Below, piece after piece: positions 4,149-18,898 of a stretch of 26,844 nucleotides of DNA. The notes below the pieces were generated by a model that ran no database searches, was not told the DNA's origin, and worked only from the letters and a program-made list of their open reading frames with translations. The DNA comes from a virus. A program made the translations under genes and the position numbers. The stretch spans positions 1-26,844 of the IMG/VR virus record IMGVR_UViG_3300022198_001289. The stretch is one strand, 5' to 3'. How positions within the stretch are numbered: position 1 is the stretch's first letter; each line of letters begins with the position of its first letter.

Positions 4149-4565
4149 ATGGCTAACGTACAACATTCCGCACTTACTGATCCAGAACTACATGAGCCAA
4201 AGGATATTTCTACTGCCTCTAGTGGTGAGGTGTACGTAGCCGATGGTTCTGCCTCTGGTGCTTGGGGTCTAGCAGAGACTATTGAGGCTACCAAGGACGT
4301 TACGGGTACTGATGGTTATGTTAAACTCCCCGGTGGTGTGATTCTACAGTGGGGTTTTAAAACTTTAGCTGCTAACACCGCTGTTTTAGTTTCTTTTAGT
4401 ACTTCTTTTCCTAATGCTCTATTAAGTGTACAAGCTACTATTCAAGAAAATAATAACCAAGATAGGTACCCTGCTAAGATAGGGTATACGGATGCTTCTC
4501 AATTTGGTTTATACAACACAAACGGTATTAGTCAAAATTACTACTGGATCGCAATAGGCTACTAA
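4149..4565 (+). CDS. Short head-fibre-like protein with gp53-like C-terminal domain
   Basis: The 138-residue product looks like a two-part fibre. Residues 6-39 (SALTDPELHEPKD, then GEVYVADGSASGAW) resemble the N-terminal segment found in phage head fibres and other capsid-attached fibres. Residues 52-138 begin with GYVKLPGGVILQWG and end with YYWIAIGY, matching the C-terminal domain of many phage tail fibres (gp53-like family), where it probably contacts the host surface. The N-terminal half is about 52% GC and the C-terminal half about 30-38% GC by hand count of single lines, which suggests the tip was exchanged. An AAGAGGA ribosome site precedes the ATG. Family names are from memory. Confidence 0.68.
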   Translation: MANVQHSALTDPELHEPKDISTASSGEVYVADGSASGAWGLAETIEATKDVTGTDGYVKLPGGVILQWGFKTLAANTAVLVSFSTSFPNALLSVQATIQENNNQDRYPAKIGYTDASQFGLYNTNGISQNYYWIAIGY

Positions 4566-4566
4566 C

Positions 4567-5262
4567 ATGAAGACTGGACCTAAAGGGATTAAACTCCTAA
4601 AGTCATTTGAAGGTTGGCGTAGTAAAGCCTACCGTGACTCAGTAGGTGTATGGACCATTGGTTATGGACATACATCTATGGCTGGTCCACCTAAAGTTAC
4701 TTCTAGTATGACCATCACTAAGGCACAGGGTGAGGCTATCCTCAAGAAAGACCTTAAGAAGTATGAGAAAGCAGTTAATGACTACGTTAGGGTCCAATTA
4801 ACTCAAGAACAGTTTGATGCTCTAGTAAGTTTCTGTTATAATGTAGGCCCCGGTAACTTCAAAAAGAGTTCAGTACTACGTTACGTGAATGCACGTAGGT
4901 TTGATGATGTACCTTCTAGGCTAATGCTATGGAATAAGGCTGGAGGTAAGGTTCTACGCGGTTTAACAAGGCGTAGAGCAGCGGAAGGAGAACTCTGGTC
5001 CTCTGGTACACGAGAATACAAACACGCTTCAGCGGCCTTCCCAGACGCTCCTAGAGGCAAGTCACCTATGGAGAGTACTACAAACATTGCTGCAACCATG
5101 AGTGCAGTAGCTGGTGTAACAGCCGCATCTAATGAGATAGTACAGAATACGAGTTCAATGATGCAGGCTGCTCCTTGGGTTCTTCTTGTTATAGTGATTA
5201 TTGGTGCTACCTTCTGGATATGGAAAGAACGTAACCGTAAGTCCAAGGAAGAAGGTATATGA
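4567..5262 (+). CDS. Endolysin: T4-type lysozyme (GH24) with C-terminal membrane segment
   Basis: This 231-residue enzyme cleaves the MurNAc-GlcNAc bond of peptidoglycan at lysis. Residues 1-150 are a GH24 lysozyme: KLLKSFEGWRSKAYRD and GVWTIGYGHT carry the triad E15, D24 and T30, with the same spacing as E11/D20/T26 of T4 lysozyme. DALVSFCYNVGPGNF and GLTRRRAAEGELW are also family-typical. There is no N-terminal signal. Instead an Ala/Ser/Thr linker (about 160-200) leads to a hydrophobic helix at about 203-219 and a basic tail (KERNRKSKEE). The last bases overlap the holin start (ATGA). An internal ATG at 5068 could give a separate 64-residue membrane product. Confidence 0.93.
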   Translation: MKTGPKGIKLLKSFEGWRSKAYRDSVGVWTIGYGHTSMAGPPKVTSSMTITKAQGEAILKKDLKKYEKAVNDYVRVQLTQEQFDALVSFCYNVGPGNFKKSSVLRYVNARRFDDVPSRLMLWNKAGGKVLRGLTRRRAAEGELWSSGTREYKHASAAFPDAPRGKSPMESTTNIAATMSAVAGVTAASNEIVQNTSSMMQAAPWVLLVIVIIGATFWIWKERNRKSKEEGI

Positions 5263-5609: not shown

Positions 5610-6364
5610 AGTATACGCTTCTAGAGATTGTACAGGAAATCCTTAGTGATATGGATAGTGATGAGGTTAACTCAATCTCAGACACTACTGAGTCACTACA
5701 GGTAGCAGGCATCGTAAAAGAAACATACTACCACCTTGTATCACAGAATGACTTACCTGAGCATACGGGTTTATTCCAGTTGAATGCTTCTGGGGATAAC
5801 ACTAAGCCAGTGCTTATGACTATGCCTAGCAATGCCCTCAAGCTCTACTGGATCAAGTATGATAAACGTAAGGATGGTGAGACTAACTCAGTATTTGATA
5901 CTGTACAGTTTCTAGAGCTTGATGACTTCCTAGAGCGTACTCAGCCAACTAACGTAGATGAAACCTACGTAGACTCTATGACAGTAGATGGGTTTGAGTT
6001 TAAGTTTCAGACTAATAAAGCTCCTGACTACTGGACAGCTTTAGGAGATGATACTCTAGTCTTTGATTCTTATGACTCTAGTGTAGACACCACACTACAA
6101 CAGTCAAAGACTTACTGCTATGGGCTACTGGAGCCTACATTCACTCTTAGTGACTCATATACTCCAGACATTGATGCTACAGAATTTAACTGGTTTGTGA
6201 ATGAAGCCAAGAAGGCAGCATTTGCTAAACTAAAGCAGGTTCGTGACCCTATTGCAGACGAACGTGCAAAGCGAGGGTGGGTACGTAGTCAGCGTAATCG
6301 TGAGAAGACACCAGCTAACGTACCCTTCTACTCAAGATTTAACAGTTATGGGAGAAACAGATAA
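5606..6364 (+). CDS. Head-tail adaptor (T7 gp11 / tail tubular A-like)
   Basis: The 252-residue product probably forms the ring joining portal to tail nozzle. It starts in an ATGA overlap with the holin. The N-terminus MKYTLLEIVQEILSDMDSDE and the following NSISDTTESLQVAGIVKETY helix are typical of adaptor proteins of podoviruses. A beta-rich middle region and a C-terminal FNWFVNEAKKAAFAKLKQV helix with a basic tail complete the pattern. The next large gene is the nozzle, the expected partner. No catalytic function is expected. The call is from pattern and gene order. Confidence 0.74.
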   Translation: MKYTLLEIVQEILSDMDSDEVNSISDTTESLQVAGIVKETYYHLVSQNDLPEHTGLFQLNASGDNTKPVLMTMPSNALKLYWIKYDKRKDGETNSVFDTVQFLELDDFLERTQPTNVDETYVDSMTVDGFEFKFQTNKAPDYWTALGDDTLVFDSYDSSVDTTLQQSKTYCYGLLEPTFTLSDSYTPDIDATEFNWFVNEAKKAAFAKLKQVRDPIADERAKRGWVRSQRNREKTPANVPFYSRFNSYGRNR

Positions 6365-6609
6365 TGCAGATTGAAGAGCGAGACGACCGTGTTCGCACCT
6401 ACGACCTTGGGAACAACAAAGCATTTATCAAACAGACTGATCCTTATGGGTTTGTATACATTAGTCTAGAGCGTGGACATCTACCAGAAAAACTACAGGG
6501 TGCCTACACAAACTATGACTATGCAGAACGTGACCTAAAACGCTACCTACAGGACAAGAAGCGTAAGGTACAAGAAGAAAAACAAGAGCCAATCAAACTG
6601 GAAGGCTAA
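6364..6609 (+). CDS. Small hypothetical protein between adaptor and nozzle
   Basis: This 81-residue product starts in a one-base TAATG overlap with the adaptor, which supports both its start and translational coupling. It has a short beta-like N-terminal half (RVRTYDLGNNKAFIKQTDPY) and a highly charged helical C-terminus (RYLQDKKRKVQEEKQEPIK). No domain is recognised. Location within the tail operon suggests an assembly or minor virion role, which is inference only. Confidence 0.7.
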   Translation: MQIEERDDRVRTYDLGNNKAFIKQTDPYGFVYISLERGHLPEKLQGAYTNYDYAERDLKRYLQDKKRKVQEEKQEPIKLEG

Positions 6610-6612
6610 TAG

Positions 6613-8802
6613 ATGACACGTAGTGCAGGTATTGCAGTTGAGAATAGTTTTGTTCGTGGTCTTATTACTGAGGCTACGGAACTAAACTATCCTGAAAACT
6701 CCTGTACTGAGACATTCAACTGTCGCTTTTTACGTACTGGTGAGGTTAAGCGTAGACTAGGGATTAACTTTGAAGTTTCCTATGCTGCGTTTAGCCTGAC
6801 TGGTGACGCTACTCGTAGTGTTAGTGCAGTGACAGAATACTTATGGCTAGGTGCTGCCGGGGATGGTAACTACAACTTTGTGGTTATTCAGGTCGGGCAG
6901 TACCTATATTTTTATCAGGCTGGTTCTGTCCTTAGTGCCAATAAGAATGCAGACAGTGTTGATCTAAGTACCCACGCTGTTTCTGGTGCTGCTAATCCAT
7001 ATGAGCATCCTTGTGCCTTTGCCTCTGGTGATGGTAAGCTCTTCGTGGTAGGTAAGCATATTGAACCCTTCTATGTTAAGTATGATCCTTCTACAGATAC
7101 TTTTAGTGAGACATCAATCACTGTAGAGGTACGGGATATTCAGGGTGATCCAGATGATCCTTATGCCTTTAATGAACGCCCTACAGCCACTACTAGCACT
7201 GTAAGTATACACCATCTATATAACCTATGGAACCAAGGGTGGGCAGAAGACGTACAGAACCATAGCTCTAACCAAGTCAATCCTGTTGCATACTGGGATA
7301 CTCAGTTAACTACTATTCCATCTAATCATGATCGTTGGTGGTTCTTTAAGGATGCTAACGAAAAGTATTACCCTAGTGACCAAGTAGGTATTATTCCTAG
7401 TTCTACGGGCATAGCACCAAAAGGACACTTTATCTTTAATGCTTTTAATATTGCTAGGACTACTGCTGCCAAAGCTAATGGTCAAACTATTAATACTGTT
7501 TATACACGTACAGACCAGAACACACTAAACGATACTACCTCTGGTGTTTATCGTCCCAGTGCAGTAGCCTTCTTTGCTAACCGTATCTGGTATGCTGGTG
7601 TAGATGCTTCAGGGTATAATAATGTATTGTACTTTAGTCAGCTTCTAGACGATATATCTAAAGTAGGTAAGTGCTACCAACAGAATGATCCTACTGACGA
7701 AACATTTAATGACCTTCTACCTACTGATGGTGGTACTCTAGTTATTCCTGCTTTGTCTAACGTAGTTAAGATGATGGAAGTGAATAACTCTCTAATGATC
7801 TTTGCTACTAATGGTATCTGGCGTATTACTGGTTCAGAAGGCATTGGCTTTACGGCCAGTGACTTTAGTGTTACTCAGGTCAGTTCACTACAGAACCGTG
7901 GTAGGCTGTCCTATGTGGATGTTAATGGTACACCCATCTGGGTCAATGCACAGGGTGTTTACACTATTGGTCAACAGGGTGTACAGTCAATTAGTGAACA
8001 GACTATACAGACATTCTTTGACACAATACCAAAAACTTCTATTCCGTACATAAAGGGTATTTACAATCAGGACGATAAGTGTGTATACTGGTTGTATAAG
8101 TCTGAGTCTGTTGGCCCTGTAGATCGTAACTATGAGTATGACAGAGTACTGGTACTTAATACTGAGACTGGTGCATTCTATCCTTGGACTATGGGTGTTA
8201 GCAGTGCACGTAATGTCATTGGTCTTGCTGTAGTTACTGGCTCTAGTACTGAGACTACAGTCGATAATGTTATTGACTCCAGTTCAAACACTGTAGTTGA
8301 TTCCAATACGGATCAAGTAGTAGCAAACACTGTGACTACAGTATCTCTTTCACCTACAACCAAGTTCTTAGTTGAGTACCTAGATAGTGGTGTACGTAAG
8401 CTAACTTGGGCTGAAGAGTTCTGTACTACCTACGAGGACTTCAATGCCTGTACGGTTGGTCAGGGTGTAGACTACTCAAGCTACTTTATCTCTGGTTACA
8501 AGACAAGAGGTGAAGCCATTAGACAGCAACAGGCTACGTACATGATGCTTCATAGCAGGGCTGAGTCTGGTGCTTCTGTGTATGTACAGGGTGTGTGGGA
8601 CTACAAGACATCTAGTGGGACCAAGAGGTGGTCTAATCCACAGCAGGGTTACAGACATAAGTCTAACTCTGCATTCACTACTCGTAAACTAAAGATACGT
8701 GGTAATGGGTTAAGTCTACAGATTAGGTGTTACTCAGAAACAAACAAACCATTCAATATCACTGGATGGGCAATGCTAGAGACAGCGGCAAACGCGGTGT
8801 AA
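6613..8802 (+). CDS. Tail nozzle protein (T7 gp12 / tail tubular B-like)
   Basis: This 729-residue, largely beta-rich protein would form the tubular tail below the adaptor. The N-terminus (AGIAVENSFVRGLITEATEL, then NCRFLRTGEVKRRLGINFE) is the typical opening of podovirus nozzle proteins. The middle contains propeller-like beta repeats such as NRIWYAGVDASGYNNVLYFSQ, IFATNGIWRITGSEG and NAQGVYTIGQQG. It ends in a jelly-roll-like region with RTRGEAIRQQ-type elements (about 630-729). Its length is close to that of T7 gp12 (about 790). GGAAGG precedes the ATG at good spacing. Arg codons are mostly CGT, unlike the genes that follow. Confidence 0.82.
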   Translation: MTRSAGIAVENSFVRGLITEATELNYPENSCTETFNCRFLRTGEVKRRLGINFEVSYAAFSLTGDATRSVSAVTEYLWLGAAGDGNYNFVVIQVGQYLYFYQAGSVLSANKNADSVDLSTHAVSGAANPYEHPCAFASGDGKLFVVGKHIEPFYVKYDPSTDTFSETSITVEVRDIQGDPDDPYAFNERPTATTSTVSIHHLYNLWNQGWAEDVQNHSSNQVNPVAYWDTQLTTIPSNHDRWWFFKDANEKYYPSDQVGIIPSSTGIAPKGHFIFNAFNIARTTAAKANGQTINTVYTRTDQNTLNDTTSGVYRPSAVAFFANRIWYAGVDASGYNNVLYFSQLLDDISKVGKCYQQNDPTDETFNDLLPTDGGTLVIPALSNVVKMMEVNNSLMIFATNGIWRITGSEGIGFTASDFSVTQVSSLQNRGRLSYVDVNGTPIWVNAQGVYTIGQQGVQSISEQTIQTFFDTIPKTSIPYIKGIYNQDDKCVYWLYKSESVGPVDRNYEYDRVLVLNTETGAFYPWTMGVSSARNVIGLAVVTGSSTETTVDNVIDSSSNTVVDSNTDQVVANTVTTVSLSPTTKFLVEYLDSGVRKLTWAEEFCTTYEDFNACTVGQGVDYSSYFISGYKTRGEAIRQQQATYMMLHSRAESGASVYVQGVWDYKTSSGTKRWSNPQQGYRHKSNSAFTTRKLKIRGNGLSLQIRCYSETNKPFNITGWAMLETAANAV

Positions 8803-8804
8803 AC

Positions 8805-8811
8805 AAGAGGG
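8805..8811 (+). promoter_or_regulatory. Ribosome site that sets the start of the first ejection protein
   Basis: AAGAGGG lies 8 bases before the ATG at 8820. It favours this start over a longer frame from 8727, whose extra 31 residues would lie inside the nozzle gene and look unlike a phage N-terminus. Confidence 0.65.
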
Positions 8812-8819
8812 AATACAGA

Positions 8820-9275
8820 ATGTTTTTTCTACCACTAATTGGTTTAGCTGCTTCTGTTATTGGTACAGGTGTTAGCGTTTATGGCCAGATGAAAGCCACT
8901 GAAGCGGCTAATAAAAGGGCTAGACTTCAAGAAAGAATGGAACAAATGCGGGCTAAACGTGCTATGGCAAAAGAGATGCGCGAAAGGGCTTTGTTGCAAT
9001 CTCAGTCTATTGCTAGAGGATACGCCCAAGGTGCAGGTGGGTCAAGTAGTCTTTATGGGGCTACATCTAACATCGCATCTCAGTCAGCCTCTAATGTCTT
9101 AGGTATAAACCAAGGACTATCTTTTTCTAGGCAGACGACTCAGTTGAATACTCAAATTGCTAACGCAGAAATGATTTCTAATCTTGGATCTGGTTTAAGT
9201 TCTCTAGGTGGAACTGCAATGAGTGTCGCAGGAAATGAAACCGCAATGAGGTCATTGAGGAGTATCACAGGTTAA
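8820..9275 (+). CDS. Internal virion protein, T7 gp14-like
   Basis: This 151-residue product is probably the first ejection protein, which forms a pore in the outer membrane when DNA enters. It starts MFFLPLIGLAASVIGTGVSV, a hydrophobic N-terminal helix containing small residues, followed by a strongly charged helix (about 25-60: ANKRARLQERMEQMRAKRAM). The C-terminal half is Gly/Ser/Ala/Asn-rich. This order (hydrophobic helix, charged helix, small-residue tail) and the location between nozzle and very large virion proteins match gp14-type proteins of T7-like phages. Eight of 11 Arg codons are AGA/AGG, a sharp change from the preceding gene. I chose 8820 because of the AAGAGGG site and the fit to family start. 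Confidence 0.72.
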   Translation: MFFLPLIGLAASVIGTGVSVYGQMKATEAANKRARLQERMEQMRAKRAMAKEMRERALLQSQSIARGYAQGAGGSSSLYGATSNIASQSASNVLGINQGLSFSRQTTQLNTQIANAEMISNLGSGLSSLGGTAMSVAGNETAMRSLRSITG

Positions 9276-9277
9276 TT

Positions 9278-12200
9278 ATGGCAGAGTGGTCAAATAAAAA
9301 TCCTGCTGTCTCTTCTGGTATTTCTTGGTCAGATAATACTTTAAGAATTGGAGACAAACAGGCTAGGACAAAGGCTGAGACTATACATGGTGCTCTTGGT
9401 GAATTTTCACCCGGAGTCGAATCTCTTTACTCTTCTTTGCTAGCTGATGGTAATGACACATCTTTTAGGGAACAGTATAGTTCTCAGGAAATGACTGATC
9501 TAGAGGAGGCTAGGTATGCTGGCATATCTGATATTCTATCTGGGTATTCTCAAGAAGAAATTAGTAAAAGGTTCGAAGGATTAGCAACATTTGATCCTGC
9601 TACAGCCATGACGCCACTTAGCATTAATCTTGAAAAGGGTTATGCTCAGAATATGGCTGACTTTGTAGATAGTTATCGTCAAGTTAGAGCTTACGATATA
9701 GACTATGGAGACTTTTTTAATTATCGGAAAAATCTAGAAGATAAGGTGCTAGACCAGATTGCTTTTTACAAGGGTTTTGAAGAAATCAATAGCTACCTAG
9801 AAGACCTAGACGAAGGCTTAACATCATATGACTTTGTAGACTTTTTCCAACAAGGTTTTCCTCTTAGGGGTGCAGCCTTGCAGATGAATGAAATTCCTAG
9901 CTTAGAGAATTTATCGTATCTTGCCGGACAGAACCTTAAAGAAACTGTAGAGTTTATTCGCAATATTGAAGACCCAGCAGAGCGTTTGAACCAGTCAAGG
10001 GCTTTGATAACTGCTATTGCTGAGGATGGTACTCTACCTTCCCCTGATGTTGCTGCTAAAGTAGCAGATGCTATTCTGCATGGTTTTGATAAAGAATCAG
10101 CTTTCTGGGACAATATCTTTATTCATGGTTCCGATGCTTTATTTGTTCCTTGGATAAAGGGACTAAGGGGTGCTGGTAAGGTAGCTGGTTCAAGCGCAGG
10201 AAGAGCTAGGGCTTACATAAAGGGATTATCCAGTAGGAAACCTCTTGTCGAGACAGCCCAAGAACTAGGTGATAATATCGAAATTGCTAAGTACGAGATG
10301 GTGAACACTACACTATCTGATACTATCGACGATATGACACGAAATTACCCAAGTTTGTTTAACTACCCTTCTATGGCAGAGGGTAAAGCTAACATTGGAT
10401 CAGCGGCGGCTCGTCAGATTTCTGATAGGTTAGAGGCAAACACCTTTGAAGCACTAGAGAAGATTCGTAGAGTTGGCTCTGTAGATAGGGTTACTCTAGA
10501 ACAACTTGATTTGGCTGCAAAGGCTACTGAGACTCGTGTTAAGCGTTGGGCAAAAGGACTAGAAAAACACGTAGTTGATATAGGGGAATCTATCAGGTTT
10601 AACGATCTTACCAATAACTATACTTATGCTATGCGCTTTGGGTATGGTGGTGCTCCATTCCCTTCAAAAAGTGCAGCTATTGACTTTGCTGAGAACCAAA
10701 TTGGTTTTACAAAGAACTTTGACTATAGAGAGATTGGTGAAGGTAGGTGGTTTGTTGAGACAGAGTTCCCTATTGATGAAACTAAAGGGATTATATCCTC
10801 TGTAAAGGATGTTGAAGTCACAACAAAGTTTGCTTCTAATGGTGATCGTATTGACTGGCTTACAGATATTCTTGATAAACCATTACTTAATAACCTTAGT
10901 CCTCGTGGTGTTCGCTCTATTGTAGACAAGGCAAACATGGGTGCTAGACTTTCTGCCGTCCACGGAACAGAGGCTCTTGTTGAGGCTATTGAACCTCTCG
11001 TAAGGAGTCTTAATAAGTTTACATTCTCTAAGCAAGACCGTAACGAAATCAACCGTATTCTTCACATACAGCAGGCTACCTACAATAAAAAGACAAAAAC
11101 TGAGGGTGTGTATTTTGAGACAGTATCCGAAGTGGAGAAAGCCTTCTTTAATGAGTTTGGTAAGTATCCAAAGGAAGGGCAGATAGAAGCTATTCTTTCA
11201 TACAAATCTATATCTGACATAGAGTTCTTTATGCACGAACTAGATATTATGAAGAACCTTCAAAGGGTAGGAAGTATCAAGCTAGAGGTAGAAGCCTTAG
11301 CAGGTAAGAAGAAAGAAAAAGTCGCTGTTAGTGGATTTGCACGGCCTGTTGACTTAATTCCTTTCTCAGAGGATGCACCAAAGAGAGTAGCTTTTATTGA
11401 CGAAAAGGGAAATGTTAGCTTTAAGACATACAGTAGGTCTTATACCACAGAGTCCAGTAAAAAGTTCTTTGATGACTTTACGAATGACGGCTCTGCTGAA
11501 ATCTTTGAGGCTGTTTGGAATCCAATTGATATTGGAGATGATGTTGCTCACTTTGTTGTTTCAAAGAAACAGGCAGTAAAGAACAGGATTAGCCCCGGTA
11601 ACTTAGGCTATAACTTTGGTGGTCACAGTCTTTATGAGGCTGGTTGGGGAATTAAACAGCCAAAGCTAAGAGGCAAGGAAACTGGAGTAAAGTACTATAC
11701 TGGGGATGAAGTTCTTCTTCTTGCGCACACAGAAAAGCAAGCTCGTGCTCTTACGGATGCCATCAACAAAGCTAAAGCTAGCCTTGCTAAAGGTACTGAC
11801 GAGTGGAAAGAAATTCGTAAGGAAAAGCTGTACTTCTGGAAAGAAGAAGAGTTTGAAAAAGTACTCAGGAAGAGCTTTAGCTTAGATGATACTGTCCCAT
11901 TTTCTGTAGTAAGGAGTGGTCAACGCTCTATTGACACCTACAATTACTCTACTCCACAGGTTAGGGTAATTGATTCTACTGAAGGTGTTTACTCACCTTT
12001 GGGAGAGATGGATCGTGCCTTCTCTCAGACAAGACAGCAGTCTAAGTTGCAGACTGTAATCGAGGAGAGTAATGGTCATATGCGTCTTGAGAGGGCTAGG
12101 AAGCTAAGTCCAGCAGTTGCCCTTGAGACTGGCCTTAAGAATGAGATACCAAAGCGTATCAAAAGAGACTACATCTATCGTTCAATGAACGACCTTATGA

Positions 12201-14047
12201 GGAACTTAGCTCTTAGGGATAAGAAAGTTTTCAATGAAAACCTAGAGAAGATTATTAACCAACCACTTGACTTCTTGCACTTCCCAGATAAGTACCTAGT
12301 ACCGGGAATAGACGCTAAAACCCGTAAAGAAATAGACGTATACAGGAAGAATATCCTTTCTATTCTTGAGAATACATCACCAGAGTACAATATGCTAGAA
12401 GCCTTTAGAATGAGGCTACTAGACTATGCTGCTCCGGGGAGTACTAAGTTTGAGTTTATTAAGGATTATATGATACCTCTGATAAAAGACCCATTTGTCT
12501 TTTCTCGTCGTATGGTATTTGCATCAAACCAAGGTTTTTGGAACTGGACTGCTTTCTTACCGCAGATGCAGCAGTTTACTATTATGGCTGGGGCTTATCC
12601 AGAGTTTGCTCTACAGAGTTTTGCAGGAGCTATCTTTCAAAAGATGGCTATGTTTACTGAGCAAGTACCTGTCTTAAATCACCTAGCAAAGCACTATGCT
12701 ATGTCCCTAGAAGGTCAATTACCAAAGAATGCAATAGGTACTGTCGCAAAAGACTTTCTTGAGATGACCCAGCTAGGTAAGGATAAAGGAGCGTTCAGGG
12801 TTGGCAATAGCTATGCTCTAATCGACGATATTACAGATGTTGATTTCACCTTTGGTTCTAGAACTAAACGCACTGCTAATGCGGTTGTTAACTCTGCTTC
12901 CATGTTTGTCCGACATGCTGAAGAGCTAATGAAGATGACTGCATGGAACATAGCATACTTAGAGTTTAAGAAAAAGAACCCAACAAAAACACTGACACAA
13001 GCAGATAAAGATGCTATACTTAATAGGGCTGATGTCTTGTCAGGTGCTATGTCAGCAGCAAACAACCAGTATTGGGCAAAGGGTGCTTTATCAGTTCCCA
13101 TGCAGTATCAGACTTTCTGGCTACGCACTATGGGTACTGTTACTCCATCTCTAATTGGTGCTAAAGACTATGATGTCAGACGGGCTTGGCAGGTTCTTGT
13201 GGCTCAGGGTATTGCATACGGTGCTCTGGATGGATCATTAAGCACTGCTTTACCATTAGCACCATATAGTGATCTCCTGAAAGAAGAGATGATAAAGAAC
13301 AATTACGACTGGTCTGAAGACTGGTATGCTAATGTTGTTATGGAAGGTCTACCAGACTTTCTTGTTCAGACTTACATGGGTATTGACCCAGACTTTTCAA
13401 GGTTCTCCCTAAAGAATGATGTTGTCTATAACATTCTTTCTGGAGATGAGAAGATGTTTGAGGTTCTTTTTGGGCCTTCTTATGACTTGTGGAAGGGTGT
13501 TGTAGCAACTCCTGTAAAGATACTAGGGTCATTCATAAATCAAAGGGATGAGTTTGAGTTAACCCAACAAGACTGGATTGATCTAGCTGGCTCAATAGGA
13601 ACTTTGAGACACATTAACGAAGTAGATATTCTTATGACACACAATAAGTGGGTTACACGTACTTCGAATAACCAAGCTGATCTTAATGACAAGAGAGAAG
13701 CATTGTTCTTTGCCATTGCTAGGGTAAAGCCAGATGCTATCAACGAAGGCTACCTAATTAAGAATGTAGAACGAAAGCGAAAAGAAAAGGTTACCGAAGC
13801 AAAGAAGGAAGCCAAGCGACTCCTAGAGAGGGCCATTAGAGTTCAAGATACGAATCCTGATGAAACTGATGCTTTAATCCGTAGGGCTAACACACTCCTA
13901 GCGACTCAAGACATTGTTGGTCGTTCAAAGTATATGTTCTTAAGAGAAATCTGGAAGGATGAAACAGACATTGAAAAGGCTACTGAGCTAATGAAGACTA
14001 TCGCAAGAAAAGCTGAACAGAAAAGCTATAGAGAAGGTCAAGAATAA
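9278..14047 (+). CDS. Very large internal virion (ejection) protein
   Basis: The 1589-residue protein is probably carried in the head and injected with the DNA, taking the role of T7 gp15/gp16. It is mainly helical, highly charged and without a signal peptide. I see no HExxH or lysozyme motif. A segment at about 775-830 (NFGGHSLYEAGWG, then TEKQARALTDAINKA) looks like domains found in large polyvalent phage proteins. A more hydrophobic stretch at about 1080-1125 (GFWNWTAFLPQMQQFTIMAG) and an SVPMQYQTFWLRTMG segment near 1270 may be membrane-interacting. The C-terminus is basic and coiled-coil-like. Arg codons are mainly AGA/AGG (15 of the first 22). The ribosome site is weak; the start follows the previous stop by two bases. 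Function is inferred from size and order. Confidence 0.75.
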   Translation: MAEWSNKNPAVSSGISWSDNTLRIGDKQARTKAETIHGALGEFSPGVESLYSSLLADGNDTSFREQYSSQEMTDLEEARYAGISDILSGYSQEEISKRFEGLATFDPATAMTPLSINLEKGYAQNMADFVDSYRQVRAYDIDYGDFFNYRKNLEDKVLDQIAFYKGFEEINSYLEDLDEGLTSYDFVDFFQQGFPLRGAALQMNEIPSLENLSYLAGQNLKETVEFIRNIEDPAERLNQSRALITAIAEDGTLPSPDVAAKVADAILHGFDKESAFWDNIFIHGSDALFVPWIKGLRGAGKVAGSSAGRARAYIKGLSSRKPLVETAQELGDNIEIAKYEMVNTTLSDTIDDMTRNYPSLFNYPSMAEGKANIGSAAARQISDRLEANTFEALEKIRRVGSVDRVTLEQLDLAAKATETRVKRWAKGLEKHVVDIGESIRFNDLTNNYTYAMRFGYGGAPFPSKSAAIDFAENQIGFTKNFDYREIGEGRWFVETEFPIDETKGIISSVKDVEVTTKFASNGDRIDWLTDILDKPLLNNLSPRGVRSIVDKANMGARLSAVHGTEALVEAIEPLVRSLNKFTFSKQDRNEINRILHIQQATYNKKTKTEGVYFETVSEVEKAFFNEFGKYPKEGQIEAILSYKSISDIEFFMHELDIMKNLQRVGSIKLEVEALAGKKKEKVAVSGFARPVDLIPFSEDAPKRVAFIDEKGNVSFKTYSRSYTTESSKKFFDDFTNDGSAEIFEAVWNPIDIGDDVAHFVVSKKQAVKNRISPGNLGYNFGGHSLYEAGWGIKQPKLRGKETGVKYYTGDEVLLLAHTEKQARALTDAINKAKASLAKGTDEWKEIRKEKLYFWKEEEFEKVLRKSFSLDDTVPFSVVRSGQRSIDTYNYSTPQVRVIDSTEGVYSPLGEMDRAFSQTRQQSKLQTVIEESNGHMRLERARKLSPAVALETGLKNEIPKRIKRDYIYRSMNDLMRNLALRDKKVFNENLEKIINQPLDFLHFPDKYLVPGIDAKTRKEIDVYRKNILSILENTSPEYNMLEAFRMRLLDYAAPGSTKFEFIKDYMIPLIKDPFVFSRRMVFASNQGFWNWTAFLPQMQQFTIMAGAYPEFALQSFAGAIFQKMAMFTEQVPVLNHLAKHYAMSLEGQLPKNAIGTVAKDFLEMTQLGKDKGAFRVGNSYALIDDITDVDFTFGSRTKRTANAVVNSASMFVRHAEELMKMTAWNIAYLEFKKKNPTKTLTQADKDAILNRADVLSGAMSAANNQYWAKGALSVPMQYQTFWLRTMGTVTPSLIGAKDYDVRRAWQVLVAQGIAYGALDGSLSTALPLAPYSDLLKEEMIKNNYDWSEDWYANVVMEGLPDFLVQTYMGIDPDFSRFSLKNDVVYNILSGDEKMFEVLFGPSYDLWKGVVATPVKILGSFINQRDEFELTQQDWIDLAGSIGTLRHINEVDILMTHNKWVTRTSNNQADLNDKREALFFAIARVKPDAINEGYLIKNVERKRKEKVTEAKKEAKRLLERAIRVQDTNPDETDALIRRANTLLATQDIVGRSKYMFLREIWKDETDIEKATELMKTIARKAEQKSYREGQE

Positions 14048-17000
14048 TGGCAGACTTTAGAGAATTTGTACAAACAGGAGATATACCTAAGTTTGAATCT
14101 CCTACATTTTATCAACCAGACTTTGGTAAAGCGATAGCTAATCTAGGTCAGACTGCTGGTATGGCTCTTGAGGCTTATGGTACACAGAAGGAGTCCCAAC
14201 TAAAAGAGGATGCAAACAGGATTGTTCGTGAAAGTTGGACAGAGGCGGGTCTTCTAGCCAGTGGGGATGCTCCTGAAGCCGATATTCCTGCTGCGCTAAA
14301 GAAGGACTTAAGTCGAGTTGAGTTCTTGGCTCAGGCATCAAGAAAGTCTACAGGTTCAAGAGCGCAAGCAGCGGCTGATGCTCTAAAAGTTAAGATGTCT
14401 GATATTCAAAAGGACTATATTGGGTACGAAGACTTGATTTATGCGACAGTAGAAAAAATCTCTGGTATCAATCCTTACAAGTTTGCCCTTGAGCTAGAAC
14501 TTGAAAAGGAAAAGGCTAAGGCTAACGCTATCAGCAATGAAGAGAAAAGACGTATGACTATTATTGGGAGTGACTCTGGTAAAGTTTTACTTCCTAATGT
14601 TGACCCAAAGAGTGCAATCTACGCTGAGAATTGGCCTGAGATAGAACAACAGATTCGACAAAGGGATGCTCGTGTAGCAGAAGCAGAGTCAGTTGAAAAG
14701 CTCTCCAAGCTGAATATACCTGCTGCTACAACTATCTATTATGATGTTGGTGGGGCAGGCAAGGGTATTGCTGTTAACGATGTCTTTACGCTGCTTAGAA
14801 ACTCTGCAAGGGAGTTTGCTAAAGACCCTAGTGAAGAAAACTATCAAAAGAACCTACAGGCTCTTCCTTTCTTTAGGCAGAAGTTAGTAGATATTCTTAT
14901 TCAAAAGAGACGGTATATACAAGAGACGAAGGGTCTTGGCGCTCCTCCTTTGGCTGACTTAACAGCTATCGAAGATCAGATACTTGAGGACTTTGATAGG
15001 CAGGCATCACTATTCTCAGAAAAGAAGTTAAATGTACTGAATACTGAACTAGAGACTCGTGCCTATGGTGCAGCTAAGTACGCAAACGAATGGCGTAGGA
15101 ATAATCCTGTTGCTGCCAGACTGTTTGATAACATCCAAATGGCTTCTCCTGAATTACGGCCAGTTATCTATTCTAACTTAGAGAATATGAAAGCGACGGA
15201 AAAAGCAGTTAACTCTGCAATTTTCTCAGGATTGACAACCCAAGAAACACCTGAAGGTGGTCAAAGCCTAGCAATAGACTATCTCAAGGGTATGATGGAT
15301 GATACTTCTATTTCAGAAGAAGAAAAGAATAGCTCCATCAAAGAAGGGTTTAGGAAGTGGAAAGAGGGTGTCTTCCTTGGCACTGAGGTATCAAAGACAA
15401 TGGCTATGTCCATTGCTGATCCAGTACAAATCAATAGGATTGCTAACGGGTTTGATAATGGAGTAGAAGACTTCTTTACTTACCTAATGGACCCACGTAT
15501 TGCACAGTCACTAAAAAAGGCTGGTGCTACGGATGAGGAAGTACAGCAGTATGTAACAAGTATTGGTACAGCTTTTGTAGAGAATGAACAAATCCGTAAT
15601 GAACTGTCTGCTACTTTGTTTAAGTACACTGCTAGGCAGAATACAGGAAGTCTCTTTGTTAATCCAGCTACTGGTGAATTATCCTTTAGGATTCGTCCAG
15701 AGATACTTGTACAACAGTCTTCTTATCCCGGCTTTGATCCAAAGAGAGGAAGTCCTAATCAGATTCTAGCGGATAATGTCTTAAAGAAAATTAACCCTTT
15801 CTTCAGGAATCTGTATAATGCTCTAGGTAATAGTGATTTAACCGAAGAAGCCAAGGTTGGTATAATCCAGTCTAATATGGCTATCTTAGGTATCCCTGTA
15901 GAGATTGCAGGAGAAGTTCAACAACAAGAACAACAGTCAAGTGCTCAAGAGCAACCTAGTTTAGAGAATGTAGCAGTACTAGAGGATGGTACTCAAGTCA
16001 TACCTACCTCTGGTACAACCACAAGGGCTGAGTTCTTAGGTGTAGATAAGGCTGTAGGTGACCTATACGAAGATAAGACTAACGTAGATACAGCAGTTAA
16101 GACAGCATGGGGTGAGGGCCGTGGAGAGACACCTGAAGGCCGTATAGCTATCTTTGAAGTACTACGTAACCGTGCTCTTGCTTCTGGTGAATCTATCGAC
16201 TACGAGGCTAAGAAGGGTAATGGATCACAGTTTAATGTCTGGAGAGAGAAAGATAAAAACTATAAGGTAGTAACTAACTTTAATGAGAAAGACCCTAACT
16301 ACGAAACGACAGTACAAGAGTTCTTGACTAGTGCCAATAGTGACATAACCAAGGGTGCTACTCACTACTACAATCCAGATACCTCAAGCCCGCCTTGGGA
16401 GAACTTATTCGTAGAGACAGCCCGTATTGGTAAGCATCGTTTTGGTTATCTAAAGAAGGATGATCCTTATCGTAAGAGGCTATCTAAGTATCGTGAGTCC
16501 TCTAATAACGATGTAATGAAGAGTGAAAGAGGGTCAGGATCAGGTTTTTTTAGTGGGTTAGTTAATACTATCTTTGGGTCAGAAGCCAAGGATGAGTTAA
16601 CTCGTGAGGAAAGGGCAACTCTAGGACGTATTGATTATACGAATGCTATCGTTGCAAAGTTTACAGATGACTTAAAGTTTTCTTCGCAAATTCTCTATAG
16701 TAGGGATTCTGGAGAAGTGGTAGAAGGGATGTTGTCTGGTCTTCCTAGTGGTGCTCTAAAAGATAAAGACAAGGTTAATCTTATATCAACCTTAGATATT
16801 GTTAAGAAGTCACCTATAGCTGCTGTTGGTTTAATAGAGGTCGATCCAAAGAAAGTTGTTTTATACAATAAGGATGACTCTCGTACAACTCTTGGAGGAT
16901 TTTATAAGCCAACCCAAGATGTCCTTTGGTACAATAAGAATGATCCTAGTGCTCTTTTACATGAGCTTGCTCATAGATCAATGGAAAAGTACAAAGATGA

Positions 17001-17277
17001 AATTTCTGCGGAAATGGATACCTATATGAATGCACCTGATCTTAAAAAGTACGTAGAGCTACCAGAGTACAATGAGTATCTTGTAAGGTACATGACAGAT
17101 GCACAACATGAGGGTGAAATAGACTTTGGAAGTAAGGGTAAGGAACAGCTAGAGATGGCTAAAGACTACTATAAAAAGGATATGTTCTTTAGGAAAGCTG
17201 TAGAAGCTACCCAAGCTGTTTTCTTAAGGAAGCTAGAGTCAATGCCGCAGGATAAATTTGGAAGAAGGCAGATGTAA
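14047..17277 (+). CDS. Internal virion protein with SleB-type cell-wall hydrolase domain and HExxH motif
   Basis: This 1076-residue protein starts in a TAATG overlap with the previous gene. Residues 1-620 are charged and helical. A Gln-rich linker follows (about 625-645). Residues 678-802 resemble a SleB/hydrolase_2 domain: AVKTAWGEGRGETPEGRIAI with probable catalytic Glu690, then VLRNRALASG, a GSQFNVW element, GATHYYNP and PPWENLF. It would open peptidoglycan during DNA entry, as the gp16 transglycosylase does in T7. Near the C-terminus H972-E973-L-A-H976 is an HExxH zinc-peptidase motif in LLHELAHRSMEKY, after a GGFYKPTQDVLWYN strand. The third zinc ligand is not certain. Arg codons are AGR-rich outside, but mostly CGT within, the SleB region. 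Confidence 0.82.
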   Translation: MADFREFVQTGDIPKFESPTFYQPDFGKAIANLGQTAGMALEAYGTQKESQLKEDANRIVRESWTEAGLLASGDAPEADIPAALKKDLSRVEFLAQASRKSTGSRAQAAADALKVKMSDIQKDYIGYEDLIYATVEKISGINPYKFALELELEKEKAKANAISNEEKRRMTIIGSDSGKVLLPNVDPKSAIYAENWPEIEQQIRQRDARVAEAESVEKLSKLNIPAATTIYYDVGGAGKGIAVNDVFTLLRNSAREFAKDPSEENYQKNLQALPFFRQKLVDILIQKRRYIQETKGLGAPPLADLTAIEDQILEDFDRQASLFSEKKLNVLNTELETRAYGAAKYANEWRRNNPVAARLFDNIQMASPELRPVIYSNLENMKATEKAVNSAIFSGLTTQETPEGGQSLAIDYLKGMMDDTSISEEEKNSSIKEGFRKWKEGVFLGTEVSKTMAMSIADPVQINRIANGFDNGVEDFFTYLMDPRIAQSLKKAGATDEEVQQYVTSIGTAFVENEQIRNELSATLFKYTARQNTGSLFVNPATGELSFRIRPEILVQQSSYPGFDPKRGSPNQILADNVLKKINPFFRNLYNALGNSDLTEEAKVGIIQSNMAILGIPVEIAGEVQQQEQQSSAQEQPSLENVAVLEDGTQVIPTSGTTTRAEFLGVDKAVGDLYEDKTNVDTAVKTAWGEGRGETPEGRIAIFEVLRNRALASGESIDYEAKKGNGSQFNVWREKDKNYKVVTNFNEKDPNYETTVQEFLTSANSDITKGATHYYNPDTSSPPWENLFVETARIGKHRFGYLKKDDPYRKRLSKYRESSNNDVMKSERGSGSGFFSGLVNTIFGSEAKDELTREERATLGRIDYTNAIVAKFTDDLKFSSQILYSRDSGEVVEGMLSGLPSGALKDKDKVNLISTLDIVKKSPIAAVGLIEVDPKKVVLYNKDDSRTTLGGFYKPTQDVLWYNKNDPSALLHELAHRSMEKYKDEISAEMDTYMNAPDLKKYVELPEYNEYLVRYMTDAQHEGEIDFGSKGKEQLEMAKDYYKKDMFFRKAVEATQAVFLRKLESMPQDKFGRRQM

Positions 17278-17432
17278 TGGCTAAACAAGGGTTGTATGCA
17301 AACATTCATGCTAAACGTAAGCGTATAGCAGCAGGGTCTGGAGAGAAGATGCGTAAGGTAGGTTCCAAGGGTGCACCTACCGCATCTGACTTTAGGAAGT
17401 CTAAGAAGACAGCAAAGAAGAGAGTAACGTAA
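17277..17432 (+). CDS. Small basic phage protein (GSGEKMRK...GAPT family)
   Basis: This 51-residue gene begins in a TAATG overlap with the preceding virion gene. It reads MAKQGLYANIHAKRKRIAAG, then SGEKMRKVGSKGAPTASDF and a Lys-rich tail. The GLYANIHAKRKRI...GSGE.MRK.G.KGAPT pattern is shared by tiny proteins in many unrelated tailed phages whose function is unknown to me. It has 16 Lys/Arg and only two acidic residues. A virion or nucleic-acid binding role is possible but unproven. The conserved pattern makes the gene secure despite its size. Confidence 0.82.
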   Translation: MAKQGLYANIHAKRKRIAAGSGEKMRKVGSKGAPTASDFRKSKKTAKKRVT

Positions 17433-17437
17433 CAAAA

Positions 17438-17806
17438 ATGGCAAAGTTAGAAAAACCATATAGACCTTTTAATAAAGGTGAGAAAATAAAGAATAAAGGT
17501 GGTAGAGGTTACTCTACAGAGAGAACAAAAACTATTGGTAATAAGAGGGCTGGTTATAAAAACATCAATACGCTATGGAAAACAAAAAGCGGTACTGTTA
17601 CGGATATAGGGCATTTATCTGAAGACAGAATTTTAGAGGTAGCAAAAAGCTATGAAAAACGTACTGGGACTTCTTATCCTATTTATACTAGTGCTCCAAA
17701 AGCAGTAGAGCAAGCTAAGAAGCGTTCTCGTTCTCAGGGCGCTGGTTCTTCTCGTTCCCTAACAGTTCCTAAACCTAGACCTAAACCAAAGAAGAAAGGA
17801 AGGTGA
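17438..17806 (+). CDS. Small very basic hypothetical protein
   Basis: The 122-residue product has 32 Lys/Arg against about 9 Asp/Glu. The first 50 residues are flexible and basic (KPYRPFNKGEKIKNKGGRG). A short folded-looking centre follows (ILEVAKSYEKRTGTSYPIYT). It ends in a Ser/Pro/Lys tail with RSLTVPKPRPKPKKKGR. The next gene has a related RSLSPKP motif. No catalytic motif is seen. Non-specific nucleic-acid binding is the most that composition supports. It lies five bases after the preceding stop and overlaps nothing of the next gene if that starts at 17812. Confidence 0.68.
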   Translation: MAKLEKPYRPFNKGEKIKNKGGRGYSTERTKTIGNKRAGYKNINTLWKTKSGTVTDIGHLSEDRILEVAKSYEKRTGTSYPIYTSAPKAVEQAKKRSRSQGAGSSRSLTVPKPRPKPKKKGR

Positions 17807-17811
17807 TTCAA

Positions 17812-18393
17812 ATGGCAAGACGTATGGGTAAAGCAGCAGACAATCAATACATGGGTGGTGGCACAGGTAACTGGAAGGGTGCACCAAAGGCTCCAGCTAA
17901 GAAGACTCCTGTTACAGGAGCAGTTAAGAAGTCTGCACCTAAGCCAATGAAGAAACGTAACATGGAGACTGCTAATAAGGTCAAGGCTGGTCTTTCTAAA
18001 TCAAAGGCTAAGTCTGGTGCTACTTATGGTAGTCCTAAAAGTAAAGTAGGATCTGGTTCACCACCAGCACCTAGAGACACTACTCGTTCATTGTCATCTA
18101 GGTCTGAAGTAAAGGCTCCTGCTCGTTCACTATCTCCTAAGCCAGTAAAATTGCTAGGATTCCCTACAGGAACAGGTTCTCTTAAGAGGAGTGCAAGAAG
18201 TAGACAAGCTATTTCTCGAAGTGCCAGTAGTCTTAATGCAAGGCGAGGTGCTATCTCCAGAGAGGCACAAGAATATCGTAAAACACAGAAGCCTAAGCCT
18301 CAGTCTCGTGGTGGTGAGATGGTTCTAGGTGGTGGTCGTGGCACTTCACAAGCAGAAAAACTAAGACGTACTCGTGGATTTGGTCGTAAATAA
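17812..18393 (+). CDS. Histone H1/protamine-like basic protein, last gene of the virion block
   Basis: The 193-residue product has 47 Lys/Arg against 8 Asp/Glu and is rich in Ser, Pro, Ala and Gly, so it is probably disordered. Lys/Pro/Ala segments (KGAPKAPAKKTP, KKSAPKPMKKR) give way to Arg/Ser segments (TTRSLSSRSE, PARSLSPKPVK, ARSRQAISRSASSLNARR) and a GGGRGTSQAEKLRRTRGFGRK end. I placed the start at the ATG at 17812, well spaced from AAGGAAGG; a GTG three codons earlier is in frame. The composition suggests nucleic-acid binding, and its place at the end of the late operon suggests a virion component or late DNA-binding factor, but neither is shown. Confidence 0.65.
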   Translation: MARRMGKAADNQYMGGGTGNWKGAPKAPAKKTPVTGAVKKSAPKPMKKRNMETANKVKAGLSKSKAKSGATYGSPKSKVGSGSPPAPRDTTRSLSSRSEVKAPARSLSPKPVKLLGFPTGTGSLKRSARSRQAISRSASSLNARRGAISREAQEYRKTQKPKPQSRGGEMVLGGGRGTSQAEKLRRTRGFGRK

Positions 18394-18420
18394 AGAGAGT
18401 TGGTGATCCGAAACAATAGA

Positions 18421-18450
18421 CCCCTTAAGGAGAAATCCTTAAGGGGTTTT
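18421..18450 (+). terminator. Intrinsic terminator between the convergent gene blocks
   Basis: An 11-bp perfect stem (CCCCTTAAGGA / TCCTTAAGGGG) with a GAAA loop is followed by TTTT and then ACTTTATT. This is a strong rho-independent terminator for the plus-strand virion block. On the minus strand the same hairpin follows the last early/middle gene by three bases, preceded by A-rich sequence, with only a weak U-tract afterwards, so it may also work in reverse. Confidence 0.92.
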
Positions 18451-18453
18451 ACT

Positions 18454-18669
18454 TTATTCGCTGTACTCTAGTTCTAGGAGTAGTTCAAGGTAGTGGATTG
18501 CTTTCTCTATGTCTGCCTTACCCTGTCCCTTTAGTCGGTGCCTTGTGATATACTTAACGGCATTACCCTCACACCAGCCTAGATTATTAGACACGATATA
18601 CTGAGTAGGCTGGATACCACAGTCCTTGTAGTGGCTACCGCCTACTTGCTTCTCAGTCGCCTTTGTCAT
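18454..18669 (-). CDS. DUF3310 protein (T7 gp1.7 C-terminal-like)
   Basis: The 71-residue product matches DUF3310 along its whole length: GGSHYKDCGIQPTQYI, NLGWCEGNAVKYITRH and then ADIEKAIHYLELLLE. The family occurs in many phages, and in T7 gp1.7 it is part of a protein reported to act as a nucleotide kinase. Here only the short domain is present, so catalysis cannot be assumed. It is the last gene of a run with glutaredoxin and ribonucleotide reductase, which fits a nucleotide-metabolism role. It overlaps the upstream acidic gene by 17 bases. Confidence 0.9.
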   Translation of the reverse strand: MTKATEKQVGGSHYKDCGIQPTQYIVSNNLGWCEGNAVKYITRHRLKGQGKADIEKAIHYLELLLELEYSE

Positions 18670-18898
18670 CTAACTCCTCAATCTTAATCCAACTATGTTC
18701 TACGAATAGGGATTCGTTACCATCCTCTTTAGACCATAGTTCTGAGTCATAGTCAAGCATATACCCTGCATCCTCTAACCCTTGTGTCTCAGCATCAATG
18801 ATTGCATAGACAGTTTCTTCATCCATATCGTCACCATCTAGACTACTGAAGGAAAACTCAATCCATACTTCTTTAGTCTCTGTTGCCTTGATCTTCAT
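18653..18898 (-). CDS. Small highly acidic hypothetical protein
   Basis: This 81-residue protein has about 25 Asp/Glu, six Lys and no Arg. An N-terminal strand-like stretch (KEVWIEFSFSSLDGDDMDEE) is followed by a helix (VYAIIDAETQGLEDAG) and another acidic strand region (ESLFVEHSWIKIEELDD). A TAGGAG ribosome site lies at good spacing. Family unknown. The charge would suit a protein that mimics nucleic acid, but acidic small proteins are common in phages and this remains a guess. It is the first gene after glutaredoxin. Confidence 0.74.
   Translation of the reverse strand: MKIKATETKEVWIEFSFSSLDGDDMDEETVYAIIDAETQGLEDAGYMLDYDSELWSKEDGNESLFVEHSWIKIEELDDKGD

Follow-up and report, generated by a model that had tools for sequence, protein, structure and literature searches.

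The window, that is, the whole stretch of DNA analyzed here, is the 26,844-nucleotide viral record IMGVR_UViG_3300022198_001289 of IMG/VR. Its source appears to be a marine podovirus resembling the Zobellviridae; its tail appendage shares about 28 to 31% identity with its counterparts in Zobellviridae and related podoviruses. The ejection block of this phage ends in an open reading frame of 1076 residues, and the original prediction, centered on positions 16012 to 17277 (residues 656 to 1076), had suggested that its product unites a SleB-type wall hydrolase with a zinc-peptidase-like region and that both would enter the host together. The relevant genes and features are the following.

4567..5262, + strand: Phage_lysozyme endolysin, encoded by a separate gene
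8727..9275, + strand: 182-aa protein, a probable outer-membrane ejection protein with weak similarity to T7 gp14 and a hydrophobic stretch
9278..14047, + strand: 1589-aa internal virion protein (PHROG 12003), a probable large ejection protein
14047..17277, + strand: 1076-aa ejection-type protein, final gene in the ejection block, as judged from gene order shared with Zobellviridae records and IMG/VR relatives
14047..16002, + strand: its N-terminal body (residues 1 to 652), 26 to 29% identical to the protein in the same slot of relative L014
16003..16047, + strand: 45-bp linker encoding PTSGTTTRAEFLGVD, with 89% DNA identity to positions 9438 to 9482 of relative L117
16069..16488, + strand: SleB/Hydrolase_2 domain (residues ~675 to 814, Pfam core 693 to 799), from Pfam, PHROG, and PDB matches
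16114..16116, + strand: Glu690 in WGEGRGE, the probable catalytic acid, from alignment to SleB YGESRGE
16894..17106, + strand: probable zincin core (residues ~950 to 1020), from profile, alignment, and model
16960..16974, + strand: HELAH (residues 972 to 976), predicted to supply two zinc ligands and the general base
17074..17076, + strand: Glu1010 in YNEYLVRY, the probable third zinc ligand, aligned with NEFMAW of N4-like virion RNA polymerases (vRNAPs) and invariant in the alignments

The endolysin gene is grouped with one for a protein with a gp53-like tail fiber C-terminal domain (window 4149 to 5262) within the structural gene block; in the Zobellviridae-like phage T5S1-k141_653015 (L008 18666 to 19046) the endolysin is of the M15 type, as against Phage_lysozyme in the window. 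Within the ejection block, the gene order is the gp14-like 182-aa protein, the 1589-aa PHROG 12003 protein, and the 1076-aa protein. The T7_gp14 profile matches the first of these at E 0.0027, under its cutoff, and the N-terminal body of the last (residues 1 to 652) has no Pfam match. From gene position, we infer that the 1076-aa protein is packaged in the virion. Its entry with the DNA is a reasonable expectation because the gene comes last in the block, after those for the gp14-like and 1589-aa proteins, because other wall hydrolases occupy the same slot in relatives, and because a separate lysozyme gene serves lysis. To this extent the joint entry role suggested originally is supported, but it is less special than had been suggested, given the precedent described by Iyer et al. 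2017 (PMC5512222) and the absence of the zincin from a near relative.

The predicted SleB half of this two-enzyme architecture is well supported by sequence comparison. The PF07486 (Hydrolase_2) profile recovered residues 693 to 799 with 36 bits against a cutoff of 27 (E 1.1e-8), and PHROG 938 matched residues 675 to 814 (E 9e-12); the NCBIfam spore_SleB model gave a weak match, under its cutoff. Among PDB sequences, the SleB chains 4f55 and 4fet were the only matches. The domain had been put at residues ~678 to 802, and Glu690 was correctly placed: WGEGRGE spans residues 688 to 694, and within it Glu690 aligns with the Glu of SleB YGESRGE, the G-E-x-R-G-E context being present. The SleB domain matches positions 48 to 184 of PHROG 938, and positions 387 to 484 of the same profile are matched by a 122-aa protein (window 17438 to 17806; L014 10202 to 10570) that is 87% identical in L014.

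The second half, around HELAH, required more indirect evidence. The motif and its preceding context lie where the original prediction had put them, with GGFYKP at residue 950. The whole protein has only 5 His, and an HExxH motif, of which 0.002 would be expected by composition, was seen in 0.165% of 20,000 shuffles of the protein. A tblastn search gave the initial hint: it matched, at E 0.9, the Roseobacter phage RD-1410W1-01 virion RNA polymerase, in which NYDPNNDVIFLATKDPEAALHELVHA...LNEFMAWGLTN faces GFYKPTQDVLWYNKNDPSALLHELAH...YNEYLVRYMTD of the window protein. The zincin-bearing part of this polymerase is common to 224 phage records (E≤0.01), and our comparison set comprised 13 annotated and 49 metagenomic N4-like zincin versions. 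In a joint alignment with 41 N4-like vRNAP zincin domains, H972, E973, H976, and E1010 were the only invariant columns; hence, the third zinc ligand that had been sought from the outset is most likely E1010.

A profile of 49 N4-like zincins matched residues 945 to 977 at E 1.9e-5 in a one-protein search, and its score was reached by 0 of 3892 full shuffles and by 3 of 4496 in which HELAH was kept in place; for two smaller profiles, the HELAH-keeping shuffles scoring as high numbered 1 of 4519 and 11 of 4408. A profile-profile comparison in which the window was left out gave E 7.5e-5 over 53 columns, replacing one with an alignment that included the window, which was discarded as circular. The same zincin match was not significant in a search over all collected open reading frames (E ~0.7) and was weak with phmmer (E 0.025), so the profile evidence has the weight of a directed test. 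The C-terminal region matched no zincin family in Pfam, PHROG, or NCBIfam, and vRNAP_dom Pfam matches, present in P0006, were found nowhere in the 1076-aa protein (P0001). When IMG/VR was scanned with the full-length protein, the C-terminal region, an N-terminal alignment, a zincin alignment, and a GFYxP-x15-LHELxH DNA pattern, only near-identical copies of the window phage, L014, and other HExxH-type proteins were recovered, and scans of plasmids and bacterial genomes returned no relatives.

Structural modeling was informative only when an alignment was supplied. The AlphaFold model from the single sequence had a pLDDT of 36, and Foldseek matched it to no zincin or anything else of use. With the N4-like alignment, the pLDDT rose to 54 overall and to ~78 around HELAH, and the predicted elements follow the order helix, strand, strand, strand, HELAH helix, helix, short helix, and helix with E1010, which matches the description of the zincin-like MPTase superfamily (PMC5512222). 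HELAH falls in a predicted helix in both models, both of low confidence overall, and in the low-confidence alignment-based one E1010 would lie in a downstream helix (153 to 163 in model numbering). The elements expected for a three-stranded sheet flanked by helices come in the right order in this model, but at a pLDDT of 54 and with best Foldseek E-values of 0.019 (viral library) and 0.35 (PDB). In the PDB, the first matches were zincins (selecase and lethal factor, E 0.35 to 0.6), and in the viral library the RD-1410W1-01 polymerase came first (probability 0.90); ART-PolyVal and MuF-type proteins ranked next, and SprT- and IrrE-like ones lower. No match reached E 0.001. These structural matches are consistent with a zincin but depend on the alignment used. 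Taking sequence and model together, the C-terminal region is a probable zincin; so distant a similarity and so uncertain a model stop short of proof. The claim that one protein carries both enzymes thus has good support for SleB and is a probability for the zinc peptidase.

Comparison with the near relative L014/L117 suggests how such an architecture may be exchanged. Its DNA is ~90% identical to that of the window up to position 8803, where the tail appendage gene has its stop codon; from 17274, which marks that of the 1076-aa open reading frame, identity is again at least 83%. Between these points (window 8803 to 17274 versus L117 1941 to 10025) there is almost no DNA similarity, the whole ejection block being different, and identity between corresponding ejection proteins is 46, 35, and 26% for the three. 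Within the replaced block, DNA similarity is confined to the 45-bp linker, which encodes PTSGTTTRAEFLGVD in the window and PASGTTTMAEFLGED in L117 and lies at the join of the body and the unrelated catalytic parts; its pattern was found in no other viral contig searched. This island could be a recombination linker or a constrained peptide.

A wider set of relatives was collected via the tail appendage, yielding 44 loci with a long enough protein in the same slot, several of which are repeat fetches of one phage. Many of the slot proteins scanned have no recognizable domain, but others carry SLT (L014 and L029, and GX1 weakly), CHAP (L017 and L065), M15 (L038, and L023 weakly), or Phage_lysozyme2 (L063). 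None outside the window phage has an HExxH motif (44 loci, repeat fetches included). The idea that the zincin is unique to the window phage within related ejection blocks was nevertheless ruled out, since other genes of L079, L084, and L089 encode HExxH proteins; it applies only to the slot protein and to the loci examined. In L089, a separate LPD23 protein with HEVQH (11861 to 12937) directly follows the slot gene, and in L079 HELAH lies within a large internal virion protein (13197 to 18743). The homologous slot protein of the near relative L014 has SLT at its end and lacks the zincin; hence, we regard the latter as an accessory and not as part of a fixed entry device. At least five unrelated families of wall-cutting domain (SLT, CHAP, M15, Phage_lysozyme2, and Hydrolase_2) accordingly occur in one ejection slot, and one lineage has a probable protease in addition.

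We propose, as a reading with about an even chance of being right, that the 1076-aa protein is a Zobellviridae-like ejection protein with an exchangeable C-terminal module, in which SleB opens the wall and the zincin cuts in trans after ejection. Wall cutting at entry would be the simplest use of SleB in this phage: the glycan-cutting domain would open peptidoglycan during passage of the ejected proteins through the periplasm. The HExxH...E zincin, of the kind seen in N4-like vRNAPs and polyvalent proteins, would then cut proteins after ejection, our preferred reading of its role, and its target is more likely to be a host protein or another ejected protein in trans than the wall. Both self-processing and host-directed roles have been described for such zincins (PMC5512222), and for the window protein we rank action in trans after ejection ahead of self-processing, a structural role, and wall cutting, in that order. 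Action in trans is placed first because the N4 zincin is kept in a protein packaged unprocessed (PMC5512222), because the L014 homologue has no zincin, and because HExxH proteins occur in other ejection-region genes (L079 and L089). The N4 precedent likewise disfavors a role solely in capsid maturation.

Self-processing is a possible but doubtful alternative, in which the zincin would cut the 1076-aa chain itself (e.g., in the linker at residues 815 to 860), before packaging or after ejection, and free the wall domain. The Gly/Ser-rich stretch SERGSGSGFFSG between SleB and the zincin would suit such a cut, and self-processing has been proposed for polyvalent proteins generally and is likely for P1 DdrB (PMC5512222); however, the uncut N4 vRNAP and the zincin-free L014 homologue speak against it, and the 1076-aa protein has no recognizable processing site. 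A more elaborate version of the entry reading, which we consider rather unlikely, is that the SleB-zincin pair was gained as one cassette and acts as a two-step tool, SleB opening the wall and the zincin then cutting a host envelope or defense protein or trimming the ejectosome, with the wall module of the slot exchanged between phages at the short conserved DNA linker.

It is unlikely that the HELAH region lacks protease activity, whether as a degenerate domain, as one with a solely structural role, or because the motif arose by chance. Such a reading could draw on the missing family match, the remote similarity, and the low-confidence model, as well as on the available parts of the N4 polymerase structure report (PMC12633501), which give domain C1 an HExxH motif and report no protease activity; the rarity of the motif, the conserved third ligand, and a similarity of context that extends beyond the motif all count against it. 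It is more unlikely still that the zincin is a second wall enzyme for the peptide cross-links, so that one protein would cut both glycan and peptide. Peptide-cutting CHAP or M15 domains do occur in the same slot of relatives, and gp30 of Ochrobactrum phage POI1126 joins Hydrolase_2 to Peptidase_M15_3, but the nearest zincin relatives found are virion RNA polymerases, and we know of no HExxH zincin that acts as a peptidoglycan endopeptidase. Least probable is the assignment of the SleB domain to lysis instead of entry: several phages have SleB/Hydrolase_2 proteins annotated as endolysins, but this one lies within an ejection-block protein, other wall domains fill the same slot in relatives, and the domain is not needed for lysis since the phage has its own Phage_lysozyme endolysin.

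The favored reading, with SleB acting on the wall and the zincin in trans, has several partial counterparts in known systems. Wall hydrolases carried by ejection proteins, with domains swapped between phages, are typified by T7 gp16 and K1E gp35 (PMC8954989); the window protein differs in having SleB instead of SLT or lysozyme and an added probable zincin, and its wall domain is C-terminal whereas that of T7 gp16 is N-terminal. The C1 zincin domain of N4-like (Schitoviridae) vRNAPs (N4 gp50 ~2124 to 2375), reported as an HExxH subdomain in the polymerase structure paper (PMC12633501), shares with it the HExxH motif and, in alignment, the third ligand in (N)E(F/Y); the RD-1410W1-01 vRNAP also has an equal spacing from the preceding Y-x-P to HExxH. 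These polymerases are virion proteins ejected with the DNA, as the window protein would be, but the latter has no RNA polymerase domain, is only 11 to 20% identical to them, and bears its zincin C-terminally, after SleB. RD-1410W1-01 also has both SleB (PF07486 E 4e-20) and a zincin in one gene region, though on two adjacent proteins: the SleB-bearing 638-aa protein (L010 3639 to 5555) is directly upstream of the zincin- and ART-bearing vRNAP (5617 to 15675). POI1126 gp30 (4841 aa) does combine Hydrolase_2 and HEAFH with a downstream EEF on one chain, but ~3560 residues separate the two in this giant protein, which also has methylase, helicase, and InPase domains, and its zincin part has no detectable similarity to that of the window. 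Finally, the polyvalent proteins with MPTase domains likewise place unrelated enzymes on one injected chain, including zincins joined to lysozyme, with PF07486 in some, and the HExxH domain of the N4 polymerase was described along with them (PMC5512222). Against these, the window protein is short, consists of two modules, and occupies a podovirus ejection slot, with no LPD or ArdC domain found and a zincin without a family match. Being shorter than the N4-like polymerases, it may offer an easier system for finding out what such zincins cut; since wall hydrolases and zincins in injected phage proteins have already been described (PMC5512222), we view it as a compact variant of that architecture and not as a new class.
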